Shown: positions 1,427-6,732 of the stretch, piece by piece
Layout of the letters: each line of letters opens with the position of its first letter
Position numbering within the stretch: position 1 is the stretch's first letter
Assembly: GCF_000517445.1 (NCBI RefSeq)
Contig: NZ_CP006965.1
Location: 1,402,681 to 1,466,680, forward strand
Direction of reading: 5' to 3'
DNA: 64,000 bases
DNA from: Thermococcus paralvinellae
GTDB lineage: Archaea > Methanobacteriota_B > Thermococci > Thermococcales > Thermococcaceae
The notes under the pieces: model-generated
What the model saw: the letters and a program-made list of their open reading frames with translations, nothing else
What the model was told of the DNA's origin: nothing
The model's database searches: none
Translations under genes and position numbers: made by a program

Positions 1427-2206
1427 TTAAGTTCTGTTTTCAAATGATATTCTATGTTCACCGCTATATATATTAAACCTTTTTCCTCGAGCAAATCCAA
1501 TCAATGTTATGTTGTATTTCCTTGCAAGCTCGACACCTTTGTCAGTTGGTGGGGACTTGGTTATCACAATAGGCATGCCTGCATTGACAACTTTTTTCAC
1601 CATGCCGTAGGGCATTCTACCACTTGAGGCTAAAATTAACTCACTCAAGTTTAGTCCATTGAGAACTGCATAACCAACTACTTTATCAACGGCATTATGT
1701 CTGCCTATATCCTCACTAAACGCAACTATCTTGCCGTCTTTATCAAAAAGGGCTGCCCAGTGAGTTCCCCCAGTTTTTTTCCACGTTTCTGCAAGCTGAG
1801 TCATAGAGGAGGATATTCTCAAGATAAGCTCAGGATGGACTCTCATTTCTCCCGTTTTTCCCTCGATGACTTTACTCTCCCTAGCTTTATACGGATCCCC
1901 ACAGGGGGTGTGCCTTATAGTCAGCTCACTTCCGAAGCGACCGATATCTGTATCTTTAACCTTTACGTAAATTTTCTTTCCCTCAATCCAGCTGTCAACA
2001 ATCCTCTCGGCTTTCTCATATCCCTCACAAATAACGAAACCAACTCCAAGTTCTCTAAGTTGACTTGGTGAAGCTGGAAGCTCAGCAAGAAACTCTTCAA
2101 ATTCATTATAAACGAGATAAACCTCAAATCTCTCTTCAATGCAGACATAATCCTCAATAGTTTTCAAACCGTTATCCCACTTGAAGATATTTATCTTTTT
2201 TATCAT
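1427..2206 (-). CDS. fdhD: FdhD, formate dehydrogenase accessory sulfurtransferase
   Basis: This 259-residue protein has the FdhD hallmarks THWAALFD, EDIGRHNAVDKVVG, ASSGRMPYGMVKKV and ITKSPPT. FdhD transfers sulfur to the Mo/W-pterin cofactor of formate dehydrogenase and is needed for its activity. E. coli FdhD uses a CxxC pair; here only one cysteine is seen at that place (HTPCGDP, near residue 105), so the sulfur relay may use a single Cys. The start ATG has GGTGG 4 nt upstream, and a TATA-like CTTATATATTC (about 2235-2225) suggests its own promoter in addition to read-through from the hydrogenase gene. It lies upstream of fdhA on the same strand, which supports the role. Confidence 0.92.
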   Translation of the reverse strand: MIKKINIFKWDNGLKTIEDYVCIEERFEVYLVYNEFEEFLAELPASPSQLRELGVGFVICEGYEKAERIVDSWIEGKKIYVKVKDTDIGRFGSELTIRHTPCGDPYKARESKVIEGKTGEMRVHPELILRISSSMTQLAETWKKTGGTHWAALFDKDGKIVAFSEDIGRHNAVDKVVGYAVLNGLNLSELILASSGRMPYGMVKKVVNAGMPIVITKSPPTDKGVELARKYNITLIGFARGKRFNIYSGEHRISFENRT

Positions 2207-2242: not shown

Positions 2243-3448
2243 TCAATTTTTCTGTATATGCTCCACATGAGTGGCACATGGTATGCATGGGTCAAACAGT
2301 CTAACAGCAGCTTCAGCAGCTTCAACCGTCAATCCCTTAACAGCATTTTCAATCACTGGGATATTAAACATTGTAGGAGTGACTATTTTTAGCCCACTAA
2401 TCTTTCCTTCCTCATCAAGTTCTACATAGTGTAATAAAGTCCCTCTCGGAGCTTCATAAGCTCCAATACCTCTACCAGGTCCAAAGATAATGTTTTGCCT
2501 TCTAAAGGGTTCCTTTATGTTAATATTATTGAAAAGTTCTTTCATCCTTTCAAAGGCTAGCTCTATTTCTAGTATTCTCGCAGCATAGAGCCCAAATAGA
2601 GATATTCCCTTAAAGGGGGTGAGAAGTGTGAGCCTTGCCCTAGGGCCGACTTCAACTGGTTTTCCTTTGTAGAATGCAACCATAACTGTGGCTTCATTCA
2701 CAAGCTTCCTTGGTTCTTCTCTATATTCCCAATAAGGAACAGTTTGAATTTCTTTAAAAGAAATTTTATACTTATCTCCAAAAAATAAGTCCGACGCTAG
2801 AAACTCATTTCTAACCATTTTTGCTCTTAGCTCATCTGCAATTTCTGTGAGATTATCTTCATCCAAGAGAGAATACCTAATATCTTCCCACTCTTTTTTA
2901 ATTCTTGGGAGTTTTGCTTTTAAATGATTCCAGACACTCCATTTTGGCACCCTCGAAATGCCACCTATCGTTAAATAAGGTGGATGAGTTGCTCCTCCTC
3001 CCAATTTAAGTAGATAGTCACTGACTTTATCATACAACCTAATTAGGCAGAGAATTAACTCATTTCTCTTTTCCTTAACAATCATATCTGCACTAACCAT
3101 AAGGAGGAGAAGAATATGCGTCTGAATCCTGTTCACCAAACCCAGCAACTCTCTTACCAATAAAGCGTTTCTTGGGGGAGAAATGCCAACTGCACTCTCT
3201 ATAGCCTCAGCAGCAGCATTTGCATGAGCAACGTGACAAACACCACAAATCCTCATAACAGCTTTAATTGTAAAAAGTGAGTCTTTTCCAATGACTAGTT
3301 TTTCAAAACCCCTTAACGGAGCAGTTGATATAAAAAAAGCATCTTGAACTATGCCATCCTCCTGTTGGAAAACCAGCTTAGCTTCACCCATTATTCTTGT
3401 AATACTTTCAAGGGGTATGTAGTTTGGTGTACTCTTAAATTCATTCAT
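2243..3448 (-). CDS. Second Frh-type NiFe-hydrogenase large subunit
   Basis: The 401-residue protein is a close paralogue of the large subunit at 5005-6186. It keeps both nickel-binding pairs: RICGVC (C68, C71) and DPCIPC (C388, C391) followed by ATH and a seven-residue tail that a maturation protease could remove. It therefore looks catalytically competent. It is the last gene of the frhA-frhG-frhB cluster, but no second small subunit is present. It starts without a clear ribosome site; a T-rich TATA-like stretch about 25 nt upstream (near 3473) suggests a leaderless transcript of its own. Family: F420-reducing hydrogenase alpha (FrhA). Whether it swaps with the first large subunit on the same FrhG is unknown. 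Confidence 0.88.
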   Translation of the reverse strand: MNEFKSTPNYIPLESITRIMGEAKLVFQQEDGIVQDAFFISTAPLRGFEKLVIGKDSLFTIKAVMRICGVCHVAHANAAAEAIESAVGISPPRNALLVRELLGLVNRIQTHILLLLMVSADMIVKEKRNELILCLIRLYDKVSDYLLKLGGGATHPPYLTIGGISRVPKWSVWNHLKAKLPRIKKEWEDIRYSLLDEDNLTEIADELRAKMVRNEFLASDLFFGDKYKISFKEIQTVPYWEYREEPRKLVNEATVMVAFYKGKPVEVGPRARLTLLTPFKGISLFGLYAARILEIELAFERMKELFNNINIKEPFRRQNIIFGPGRGIGAYEAPRGTLLHYVELDEEGKISGLKIVTPTMFNIPVIENAVKGLTVEAAEAAVRLFDPCIPCATHVEHIQKN

Positions 3449-3491
3449 GTCTTAAGATTTTGAAGCTAAAAATAAAAAACTTTCTAAAAAA

Positions 3492-4325
3492 CTAAAGCAA
3501 ATACATCATGTTTTGTTGAGCTCTTGCAAGTTTTTCCCTTGCCTTTTTCAAAACTTCTCCAATTAAATGAGAACCTTCTCTTAGTTCTAAATATCCCTCT
3601 TTCTCTGCATTTTTAATGAGTTCCTCAGCCTTAGGATTCCTCGCTATAAGGAGTGTCCATCCAGGTTCACTCTCTACAAAACCCGCTGAGATGTCGCTCC
3701 ATGTTCCAGTGTAATCTGTACACACCAAACAGCCAGCTTGGAGATAGGAATAAACCTCCTCAATTGGTAAATCAAGCTTTGTGTCATTGTATACTATTTC
3801 AAGGAAATCTTTTTTAAGATGAATATCTTTTATTTGCTCTGCTTTTATCCCGTATTTCATTCTGAGGTAGTTTAGAAAAGCCTCAAAAGCAAATGTTCCC
3901 ATACAGAACAGACTTACTATGTACTTTATTCTTTCACCGAAATCAGTCTCTAATAGAGGAAAATCCCTCATTTGGGCAAAAAACTGTGCCTGACATGGCA
4001 AACATACTAAAGCAACTCTTTTCAAATCTTCTTCCTCAATCTTTGCTTTCATTCTCGCTGCAAACGGGACTATGCTCCATTTGTTTCCTGCCGTTTCTAA
4101 TAACTCCTCTTTATTATGAGCAACAATTGCCTGCCCTTCAAATCCTTTTGTTCTCTTTGCTGTAACAACGCCATCAACTATGCCCTTTTCAAGGGCATAA
4201 GTTAGTAAAGCCGTAACTGCTCCACCACTTGCAACTTTTCTCTTCCTTATCTCTTCGTCCTTGGCCCTTGCTAAATAAACTCCAAAGACAGTCCCTAAAA
4301 GGTTTTCTGATGGTAAACCAATCAT
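3492..4325 (-). CDS. frhB: FrhB-type flavin/Fe-S subunit of F420-like hydrogenase
   Basis: The 277-residue FrhB/FdhB-family protein has the N-terminal SGGAVTALL segment and cysteine clusters LVCLPCQAQ, SLFCMGTF and AGCLVCTDYTGTWSDIS that bind a 4Fe-4S centre and FAD. In methanogens this subunit reduces F420. Thermococcales are not known to make F420, and for Thermococcus onnurineus FrhAGB electron delivery to thioredoxin reductase has been reported (recalled, not checked). Its ATG overlaps the frhG stop (ATGA at 4325-4322), so the two are translationally coupled. A shorter NifB-like or coenzyme-F420 dehydrogenase role is possible, but the context favours hydrogenase. Confidence 0.88.
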   Translation of the reverse strand: MIGLPSENLLGTVFGVYLARAKDEEIRKRKVASGGAVTALLTYALEKGIVDGVVTAKRTKGFEGQAIVAHNKEELLETAGNKWSIVPFAARMKAKIEEEDLKRVALVCLPCQAQFFAQMRDFPLLETDFGERIKYIVSLFCMGTFAFEAFLNYLRMKYGIKAEQIKDIHLKKDFLEIVYNDTKLDLPIEEVYSYLQAGCLVCTDYTGTWSDISAGFVESEPGWTLLIARNPKAEELIKNAEKEGYLELREGSHLIGEVLKKAREKLARAQQNMMYLL

Positions 4326-4999
4326 ATCCTACCCCCCATACAAAGCAGTTGAGATGCACGAGGACATCTCACATAGCACGTTCCACAGCGAATACATTTT
4401 TCAGCTATAAGGTTAGGCCTCTTATCTATCATTTTAATTGCTTGTGTTGGACATGATAGCTCACATGCACCACAGCCAATGCAGAGACCTGTTAAAACGA
4501 TGTCATCAATCAAGTCGAAACCGCTGAGCTTCTTGATATCCGCACAAACTTTGAACAATCTGAGTCTCCTTTCATCACCCGCTATAAAGAACTTGAAGAA
4601 TGATTGGACCATTTGAGGGGTTGGGGGACAACCAGGAATTGAATAATCAACCTTGACAACACTATTTATAGGCTGGAAGTTTCTGTGGTCTGGCCTAGGT
4701 TCTTGCCCACCCCTACAGAACCTTAAAATTCCTCCAAATGTTGCGCATGAACCAAAAGCAACGAGAGTGCTTGCCTTCTCTCTAAGACTTTTTACCTTTT
4801 CAATTATATGAGGTTCATTCATGCAAACTCCACCAGTTATTATGACAATGTCATATTTGTCTCCGGCACAGGTTTTCTTTGCTAAGTATTTCATGTCCAA
4901 ATCAACGAACTCTTGAATATTTGGAAGTGCTCTTAAAATGCTAACATTACAGCCTTCACACCCTCCAATATCAACATGAAGGACCTTCAATTTCTCCAT
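4322..4999 (-). CDS. frhG: FrhG-type NiFe-hydrogenase small subunit with ferredoxin domain
   Basis: This 225-residue subunit binds the proximal 4Fe-4S cluster through GGCEGCN (C14, C17), GSCATFGG and PGCPPTP. Its C-terminal third adds two CxxCxxCxxxCP ferredoxin motifs (CIGCGACELSCP and CIRCGTCYVRCP), giving the three-cluster relay typical of FrhG. I chose the ATG at 4999 because GAGGTGAG lies just upstream; that ribosome site overlaps the end of frhA (stop 5007-5005). It is the only small subunit in a cluster with two large subunits. Confidence 0.91.
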   Translation of the reverse strand: MEKLKVLHVDIGGCEGCNVSILRALPNIQEFVDLDMKYLAKKTCAGDKYDIVIITGGVCMNEPHIIEKVKSLREKASTLVAFGSCATFGGILRFCRGGQEPRPDHRNFQPINSVVKVDYSIPGCPPTPQMVQSFFKFFIAGDERRLRLFKVCADIKKLSGFDLIDDIVLTGLCIGCGACELSCPTQAIKMIDKRPNLIAEKCIRCGTCYVRCPRASQLLCMGGRI

Positions 5000-5004
5000 T
5001 TTAC

Positions 5005-6186
5005 TCACCTCAACTCAACAACGTGGGTTGTACATGGTATACAAGGATCATATAAGCGCATAACAGCCTCTGCAGCTTGAATACTAAGTCCCTCCGCTGC
5101 TTTTTCCATAATTGGGATGTTAAACATCGTCGGAACCACTATCTTAAAGTCTTGAATTCTGCCCTCTTCTCCAAGCTCTACATAGTGGAACAACGTACCC
5201 CTTGGGGCTTCATAAACCCCAACTCCTCTCCCAGGTCCAAAGATTATGTTCTGAGTTCTGAAGGGTTCATTCATATTGATTTGGTCAAGAATTTCTTCCA
5301 GCCTTTCAAGTGCTATTGTTATTTCTTCAATCCTAGCCAAGTGAATACCAAAGAGAGAGTTGTCTCTGAAAGATCTATAAATGGCCATTCTTGCTCTGGG
5401 ACCAACTTCAACCGCTTTTCCTTTATAAAATGCGACCTGTGTTGTAGCCTCTTTTGCTACATCTTCTTTCTCACCTTTGTAGTCCCAGTAAGGAACTGTC
5501 TTCACGGCATCTGGAGAAACATTATATTCATCACCATAGAACATGTGCGAAGCTAGATATTCGGGAGCGAACTTCTTTTCTTTAAGCTCCATAGCAATCT
5601 CAGTTAAGTACCCTTCATCCACTAAATAAGCCATTATCTCGGCCCAGAGTGACTTAAGCTCTGGGAGTCTTGCCTTAAGATTATTGAATACACTCCACTT
5701 TGGAACTCTTAAAAGACCACCAACCGTCAAATAGGGTGGATGTGTTGCAGCACCACCCAGCTTGAGCAAATAATCACTTATCTTTCCATGAAAGGTCATC
5801 AGCTTAAAGATGACTTCCATTCTCTTCTCTTCAATTATGAAGTCTCCCGCCATCATTGCCAATTGAAGAATGTGGCTCTGAATTCTGTTTATCAAGCCAA
5901 GTGCTTCTCTAATTAGTAAACCATTTCTAGGGGGCAAAATTCCTAAAGCATTCTCTATTGCCTCTGCAGTTGCGTTTCCATGTGATGCATGGCAAAGTCC
6001 ACATATTCTCATGACTGCTTCAACAGCAAAGAGAGGATTTTTTCCTATGACTAATTTTTCAAATCCTCTCACTGGAGCAGTAGCAATGAAATTAGCTTGT
6101 TTAACTTCCCCATTTTCGTGATAAAGTACTAACTTAGCCTCACCAGCAATTCTGCAAAGCTCATCTATCTGAAGATACTCGCTCAT
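5005..6186 (-). CDS. frhA: FrhA-type NiFe-hydrogenase large subunit
   Basis: From the ATG at 6186 (GGAGGGA upstream) the protein is 393 residues, the usual FrhA size; a longer upstream reading has no ribosome site. It holds the active-site ligands RICGLC (C62, C65) and DPCIPC (C382, C385), with TTH and a five-residue tail for proteolytic maturation. It is the first gene of the cluster frhA-frhG-frhB-frhA2. Upstream lie a TATA-like CCCTTTTATTTT (about 6255-6243) and a perfect SurR motif at 6263-6279. The enzyme should be cytoplasmic and couple H2 to a flavin-linked acceptor. Confidence 0.92.
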   Translation of the reverse strand: MSEYLQIDELCRIAGEAKLVLYHENGEVKQANFIATAPVRGFEKLVIGKNPLFAVEAVMRICGLCHASHGNATAEAIENALGILPPRNGLLIREALGLINRIQSHILQLAMMAGDFIIEEKRMEVIFKLMTFHGKISDYLLKLGGAATHPPYLTVGGLLRVPKWSVFNNLKARLPELKSLWAEIMAYLVDEGYLTEIAMELKEKKFAPEYLASHMFYGDEYNVSPDAVKTVPYWDYKGEKEDVAKEATTQVAFYKGKAVEVGPRARMAIYRSFRDNSLFGIHLARIEEITIALERLEEILDQINMNEPFRTQNIIFGPGRGVGVYEAPRGTLFHYVELGEEGRIQDFKIVVPTMFNIPIMEKAAEGLSIQAAEAVMRLYDPCIPCTTHVVELR

Positions 6187-6262
6187 TAATATCCCTCCCT
6201 CTCCAAACTTTCTTCTTGTTGTCACTAGGTTATTATGAAAACTAAAATAAAAGGGTTTTCTG

Positions 6263-6279
6263 AACCAAAAGTTTAGAAC
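6263..6279. promoter_or_regulatory. SurR-type operator upstream of frhA
   Basis: Read on the minus strand the site is GTTCTAAACTTTTGGTT, a perfect GTTn3AACn5GTT. It ends about 8-12 nt upstream of the frhA TATA box, the same geometry as at fdhA. This placement suits activation by SurR. Confidence 0.72.
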
Positions 6280-6477: not shown

Positions 6478-6504
6478 TGAAATATTTGAAAGGAGATATT
6501 GAAA

Positions 6505-6732
6505 ATGTATGGAGATAGATTTGGCGGAAATAGAGACAGATTTAGTGGAGTAGCCCCAGTTAAAGTTGGAGAAAGATACACTGTTAAAATCGAAAGTATA
6601 GGAAAAGGCGGAGACGGAATAGCTAGGATTAAGGGCTTTGTTGTGTTTGTTCCAAACACAAAAGTAGGTCAAGAAGTTGAGATCGTAATTAACTCTGTCA
6701 AGCGAAAATTCGCTTTTGGAGAGGTTATTTAA
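6505..6732 (+). CDS. Small TRAM-domain RNA-binding protein
   Basis: This 75-residue protein has a basic, glycine/arginine-rich N-terminus ([11 protein letters not shown]) and then a complete TRAM domain ([27 protein letters not shown] and so on). Stand-alone archaeal TRAM proteins bind RNA and behave as RNA chaperones, some of them cold-induced. The ATG at 6505 is preferred over an in-frame TTG at 6499 because AGGAG (6491-6495) is then 9 nt away rather than 3. The end overlaps the convergent KaiC-like gene by 8 nt. Confidence 0.88.

Follow-up and report, generated by a model that had tools for sequence, protein, structure and literature searches.

A Thermococcus frh operon with two intact large-subunit genes and a single small-subunit gene: FrhA2 as a possible alternative catalytic subunit

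The Frh-type hydrogenase operon of Thermococcus paralvinellae encodes two intact [NiFe] large subunits, FrhA1 and FrhA2; genome-wide, these two FrhA genes stand beside just one gene for a small subunit of the Frh type, FrhG. No frh operon of this composition was found in the papers searched. We consider it an evenly balanced proposition that FrhA2 is an alternative catalytic subunit sharing FrhG and FrhB, which would give two Frh isoforms. If FrhG is shared, the operon would be a natural isoform experiment in which the same electron-transfer partner meets a different NiFe pocket. It could then be used to probe the pocket residues that set H2 affinity and resistance to oxygen or CO, as well as whether the Thermococcus Frh is a hydrogen sensor for SurR. 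The window, the whole stretch of 64,000 nucleotides that was analyzed, covers positions 1402681-1466680 of the T. paralvinellae genome (1,957,742 bp, single contig).

Gene content of the frh locus

Gene identities of the frh cluster and fdhD were assigned from Pfam and NCBIfam profiles (Table 1). A sequence-only reading of this DNA had proposed the order frhA-frhG-frhB-frhA2 at 2243-6186, with a single small subunit for two large ones; these coordinates proved exact, and FrhG is single genome-wide. Neighboring genes from frhA1 to frhB share a few overlapping bases, and frhB and frhA2 are spaced by about 46 nt (43 nt counted from the frhB stop codon). The Rfam search returned no known RNA at the frh locus. 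Upstream of the frhA1 promoter, a divergent reading frame (window 6499-6732) encodes a small protein of about 75 aa that by eye looks like a TRAM-domain protein.

Table 1. Features of the frh locus, in window positions
Feature	Position	Strand	Remarks
frhA1	5005..6186	-	[NiFe] large subunit, 393 aa; ATG begins at 6186
frhA1 nickel Cys codons	6003-6001, 5994-5992, 5043-5041, 5034-5032	-	
frhA1 cleavage His codon	5025-5023	-	tail VVELR (5 aa) after His
frhA1 motif RIAGE	6139-6153		
frhG	4322..5008	-	N-terminal Oxidored_q6 and C-terminal 2x[4Fe-4S] ferredoxin domain (two Fer4)
frhB	3492..4325	-	flavin and iron-sulfur subunit, FrhB/FdhB-type; FrhB_FdhB_N/C domains
frhA2	2243..3448	-	second [NiFe] large subunit, 401 aa; 2243 is the last stop base
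frhA2 nickel Cys codons	3247-3245, 3238-3236, 2287-2285, 2278-2276	-	
frhA2 cleavage His codon	2269-2267	-	tail VEHIQKN (7 aa) after His
frhA2 motif RIMGE	3383-3397		
fdhD	1427..2206	-	sulfurtransferase for formate dehydrogenase; 3' of frhA2, then fdhA
SurR site GTTCTAAACTTTTGGTT (GTTn3AACn5GTT)	6263..6279	-	perfect site, upstream of frhA1 BRE/TATA; identical in three species
frhA1 BRE AGAAAA and TATA TTTTAT	6247..6261	-	conserved in three species
frhA2 block TTTTTAGAAAGTTTTTTATTT, 21 nt	3470..3490	-	-42..-22 from frhA2 ATG; invariant in four species
frhA2 BRE-like AGAAAG	3485-3480	-	-37..-32 from ATG
frhA2 TATA TTTTAT	3477-3472	-	-29..-24 from ATG

In a whole-genome search, two genes were of FrhA type (100% and 61% identity), and the hydrogenase large subunit ranking after them reached 32%; FrhA1 and FrhA2 share 61% identity across 386 residues. 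FrhB is also a single-copy gene, and each of the four frhA2-bearing species likewise has one FrhG and one FrhB. FrhA2 may pair with the only FrhG, which is the most economical reading. Several further small subunits are encoded in the genome, and FrhA2 might partner one belonging to another hydrogenase or act alone. We regard this as very improbable, as the other small subunits are at most about 33% identical to FrhG (next best match, 29%; E about 1e-10), none of their genes is linked to frhA2, and FrhA2 retains Frh-type positions.

Intactness of FrhA2

The nickel ligands are C62/C65/C382/C385 in FrhA1 and C68/C71/C388/C391 in FrhA2, and both CxxC motifs are present in all four FrhA2 proteins. 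Both paralogues retain the C-terminal His, the Arg of EAPRG, and the Asp of DPC, located in FrhA2 at His394, Pro334-Arg335, and Asp386, respectively; FrhA2 also has the His of CxxCxxxH. Glu49 and Glu266 of FrhA2 are equivalent to E44 and E229, the ion ligands of Methanothermobacter marburgensis FrhA (PMC3591093), and FrhA1 also has Glu equivalents. The FrhA compared have 50 invariant columns in common, and all four FrhA2 retain 45 of them, so that the alignment check for missing conserved residues that had been suggested earlier came out in favor of an intact protein. The AlphaFold model of FrhA2 (mean pLDDT, 87; pTM, 0.88) has as its best fold match the F420-hydrogenase alpha subunit 9r51_A (TM, 0.83/0.85).

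FrhA2 also has the DPCxxCxxH cleavage motif, with a 7-aa tail past His394 in all four species. Sensory large subunits of the HupUV/HoxBC type have no cleavable tail at the C terminus, and their signaling runs through a kinase. Their H2 input to gene regulation is shared with the role proposed for the Thermococcus Frh, and regulatory hydrogenases have been named as an analogy for it (PMC6367845). However, FrhA2 extends past its last His by a conserved tail and has no linked kinase. A classic regulatory role of this type, or a pure cofactor-storage role, both of which the sequence-only reading had entertained, is thus not supported, given the tail kept in all four species. No dedicated second maturation protease for FrhA2 was found in the T. 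paralvinellae genome, which has one HycI-family gene; FrhA2 would be loaded with NiFe and clipped by this general HycI-type protease of the cell. One such protease stands against about seven hydrogenases in this genome, and several relatives have a second HycI gene beside a soluble hydrogenase.

The metal ligands are conserved; residues around the pocket differ between the paralogues. Residue 70 is Val in FrhA2 (CGVC) and Leu in nearly all FrhA1 (CGLC), and we take Val70 to correspond, by motif position, to the gas-channel Val74 of Desulfovibrio fructosovorans. After the first CxxC, Ala74/Ala76 of FrhA2 replace Ser/Gly of FrhA1. These differences suggest that gas access or turnover is probably different in FrhA2.

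Distribution and origin of frhA2

At the E-value used, an FrhA-like gene was found in 31 of 94 Thermococcales genomes. Adjacent A, G, and B genes whose closest homologues lie in Thermococcales frhAGB place the locus among the Frh-like clusters, and identities to other genera range from 60-71% for FrhA1 and 66-81% for FrhG to 65-82% for FrhB. Two separate FrhA copies occur in only 4 of the 31, all in the window's genus. The A-G-B-A order thus holds, continued by fdhD, wherever frh occurs in the genus (four species), and it is absent from the remaining 27 genomes, so that the conservation across Thermococcales that was to be surveyed is confined to one genus; three further species of the genus lack frh. 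frhA2 is accordingly known from four species, which disposes of the earlier concern that it might be absent in all relatives. One further genome (G023) shows two FrhA matches because its single frhA is broken by a frame shift or stop (L053:7373-8535), with frhG and frhB intact. In some genomes of other genera (L045, L048), frhB is followed directly by fdhD, so that frhA2 occupies the frhB/fdhD gap. Outside Thermococcales, crenarchaeal metagenome-assembled genomes (MAGs) of Ignisphaera and Desulfurococcales (L039:4268-6998, L040:2-2610) encode Thermococcales-type FrhA-G-B at 42-57% identity, and Mrp-antiporter-like genes, as judged by eye, lie about 2 kb beyond the cluster in L039.

In the tree of FrhA paralogues called for previously, built by maximum likelihood with two outgroup choices, the FrhA2 proteins grouped together with full support, and their clade branched next to the genus's own FrhA1 as its sister, with support of 81/67 (distant outgroups) and 95/86 (crenarchaeal outgroups only). 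These data suggest that frhA2 most likely arose by duplication within the window's Thermococcus lineage. An older duplication, before the split of the Thermococcales genera, is less likely; forcing FrhA2 outside all Thermococcales FrhA1 lowered lnL by 4.9, a difference short of rejection (p-AU, 0.134). Horizontal gain was rejected on the basis of the closest non-Thermococcales sequences, which are crenarchaeal FrhA at 43-44% identity, of a GC content close to that of frhA1, and of the position in the tree beside the FrhA1 of the genus.

The FrhA2 stem branch is long (0.54 compared with 0.19), and dN/dS among the four species ranges over 0.05-0.10 in A2 and 0.02-0.04 in A1. This pattern indicates that FrhA2 diverged fast and then came under purifying selection, less strict for A2 than for A1. 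Retention of the FrhG interface was judged by the columns invariant in Thermococcales A1. FrhA2 retains 86% of these residues, with 45% identity at the other, variable positions, compared with 93-97% for true A1 orthologues in leave-one-clade-out controls; crenarchaeal FrhA, which sit beside their own FrhG, retain 75-80%. Seventeen conserved positions are replaced in all A2 proteins, and 10 of the 17 carry states seen in other FrhA.

The view that the second copy is not decayed, put forward with its four nickel cysteines and short tail, is borne out by the dN/dS values and the intact motifs. Alternatively, frhA2 might be a redundant tandem copy on its way to being lost, as might be expected from its restriction to one genus and from the copy of one species (G088; L044:2523-3716), which reads RIMDG in place of RIMGE and lacks two residues of a conserved helix. 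These changes hint at relaxed constraint in that species; the genome is a MAG and incomplete, with its FrhA1 truncated by a contig end. Intact reading frames and ligands, low dN/dS, and a conserved promoter block in four species argue against such drift, to which we give hardly any credence. The motif erosion in G088 and the constraint on A2, weaker than on true A1 orthologues, nevertheless count against FrhA2 as an alternative subunit.

A proton-relay glutamate missing from both large subunits

The Glu of the RxEGH motif (E25 of D. fructosovorans), at residue 20 of the FrhA2 pocket on the proton path, is Met in FrhA2, Ala/Ser in all Thermococcales FrhA1, and Cys in Ignisphaera FrhA, whereas methanogen-type FrhA retain it. 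Glu or Asp two residues on stands in place of the His of RxEGH in nearly all Thermococcales and crenarchaeal FrhA-like subunits, the comparison covering all Thermococcales FrhA and one complete crenarchaeal FrhA-like subunit. As this Glu is absent from FrhA1 too, its loss characterizes the subfamily rather than the duplicate. The subfamily of FrhA1 and FrhA2 thus manages without a proton-relay Glu held important in most [NiFe] hydrogenases. The residue is perhaps better described as usual in [NiFe] large subunits than as defining them; the T. onnurineus member of the subfamily is reported to be active.

The Met shared by all four A2 proteins, together with the longer stem and the weaker constraint, would also fit a weakly active or inactive modulator that occupies FrhG (and FrhB) and lowers or buffers H2-driven reduction of thioredoxin reductase and SurR. 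However, the metal ligands of FrhA2 are complete, its catalytic Arg and processing tail are in place, and FrhA1 lacks the same Glu while the T. onnurineus Frh is reported to oxidize H2; we judge a modulator to be improbable.

Promoters of frhA1 and frhA2

The frhA2 promoter was called from the published T. onnurineus consensus and from cross-species conservation. T. onnurineus has 117 leaderless genes, and its TATA consensus TTWTAW is located between -30 and -20, 5 bp downstream of an A-rich BRE (PMC5316973). The BRE/TATA spacing upstream of frhA2 fits this pattern, so that transcription is predicted to start at the frhA2 ATG. All 21 bases of the block and the 7 bases preceding the ATG are identical in four species, compared with four-way identity at 31% (72/231) of the four-fold degenerate sites of frhA1/frhA2. 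Neither a Shine-Dalgarno sequence nor a SurR site was seen upstream of frhA2. By contrast, the spacing upstream of frhA1 predicts an mRNA leader with a GGAGGG Shine-Dalgarno sequence. A leaderless promoter of its own, as the sequence-only reading had supposed, is therefore well supported for frhA2 at the sequence level.

General conservation of all intergenic DNA was rejected as the cause of the block, because the 33-36 nt gap between frhA2 and fdhD is much less conserved. Archaeal transcription termination uses T runs, and the block, which has T runs of five and six just after frhB, could instead or additionally be the terminator of frhAGB. We consider this unlikely. Where a genome has no frhA2, the block is missing after frhB; in one genome (L070), frhB ends elsewhere, yet the block stays at -22 of the frhA2 ATG, which indicates that its position is set by the start of frhA2 and not by the stop of frhB. 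Moreover, AGAAAG and TTTTAT are spaced as published, and the frhA1 promoter shows the same AGAAA...TTTTAT layout.

Electron acceptor and proposed role of FrhA2

Assignment to the Frh group, as first proposed, holds in that the nearest profile to both large-subunit reading frames is TIGR03295 (FrhA) and the FrhA2 model matches the fold of Frh alpha; it does not extend to F420 specificity. FrhA1 (296.5 bits) and FrhA2 (251.9 bits) both fall below the equivalog cut-off of 392.5 bits. F420 availability was judged by CofD, which had no match in seven genomes of the genus and was detected in control methanogens. The absence of CofD and the scores of both subunits make F420 an unlikely acceptor, and the acceptor of both is probably another compound. 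In T. onnurineus, electrons from the oxidation of H2 by Frh go to thioredoxin reductase, and this enzyme can reduce SurR via Pdo; a review describes Frh as possibly a regulatory hydrogenase (PMC10025317). When frh is deleted or overexpressed, gene expression and oxygen tolerance change (PMC6367845). In T. paralvinellae, all seven hydrogenases are reported to be expressed, at the level of hydrogenases (PMC11959275).

The frhAGB clusters of T. onnurineus NA1 and T. piezophilus ("F420-reducing-like") have the same A, G, and B genes, the same SurR-linked promoter type, and fdh/mfh formate neighbors, but lack a second large-subunit gene, T. piezophilus being reported with three coding sequences. 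Methanogen FrhADGB (group 3a [NiFe]) resembles the present system in fold (TM, 0.83-0.87 to 9r51 and 3zfs), nickel ligands, ion-binding Glu/His, and FrhG and FrhB architecture, although identity is about 30%, the operon here has no frhD, the proton-path Glu is replaced in a genus without CofD, and each methanogen operon has one FrhA instead of two. As methanogen FrhABG forms a dodecamer (PMC3591093), a large assembly with FrhA-FrhA contacts, FrhA1 and FrhA2 might sit in one mixed oligomer with FrhA2 in a structural position; every FrhA in that assembly has its own FrhG, however, and FrhG would limit the stoichiometry, which makes such an arrangement quite improbable.

With FrhA2 as an alternative catalytic subunit, the following scenario can be drawn. 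Within one Thermococcus lineage, a copy of the operon's own large-subunit gene took a fixed place between frhB and fdhD, and its mature product would replace FrhA1 in assembly with the only FrhG (and FrhB). Two isoforms would result: A1GB under SurR control, and A2GB, in which the supply of A2 is set by its own leaderless promoter, so that frhA2 expression would be uncoupled from SurR. Both would feed the route from H2 to thioredoxin reductase known from T. onnurineus Frh. As the A2 promoter does not drive frhG or frhB, A2 would be without a partner if frhAGB were off, which counts against this scenario. We propose more tentatively, as a possibility short of an even chance, a subunit swap in which one FrhG and one FrhB serve two pockets, one of them SurR-controlled, and the swap tunes the H2 response of the loop from H2 through thioredoxin reductase to SurR. 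Paralogous hydrogenases are known from Methanococcus, where Fru and Frc are complete operons encoding two isoenzymes with different catalytic subunits and control, each with its own small subunit; in the Thermococcus cluster only the large subunit is doubled.
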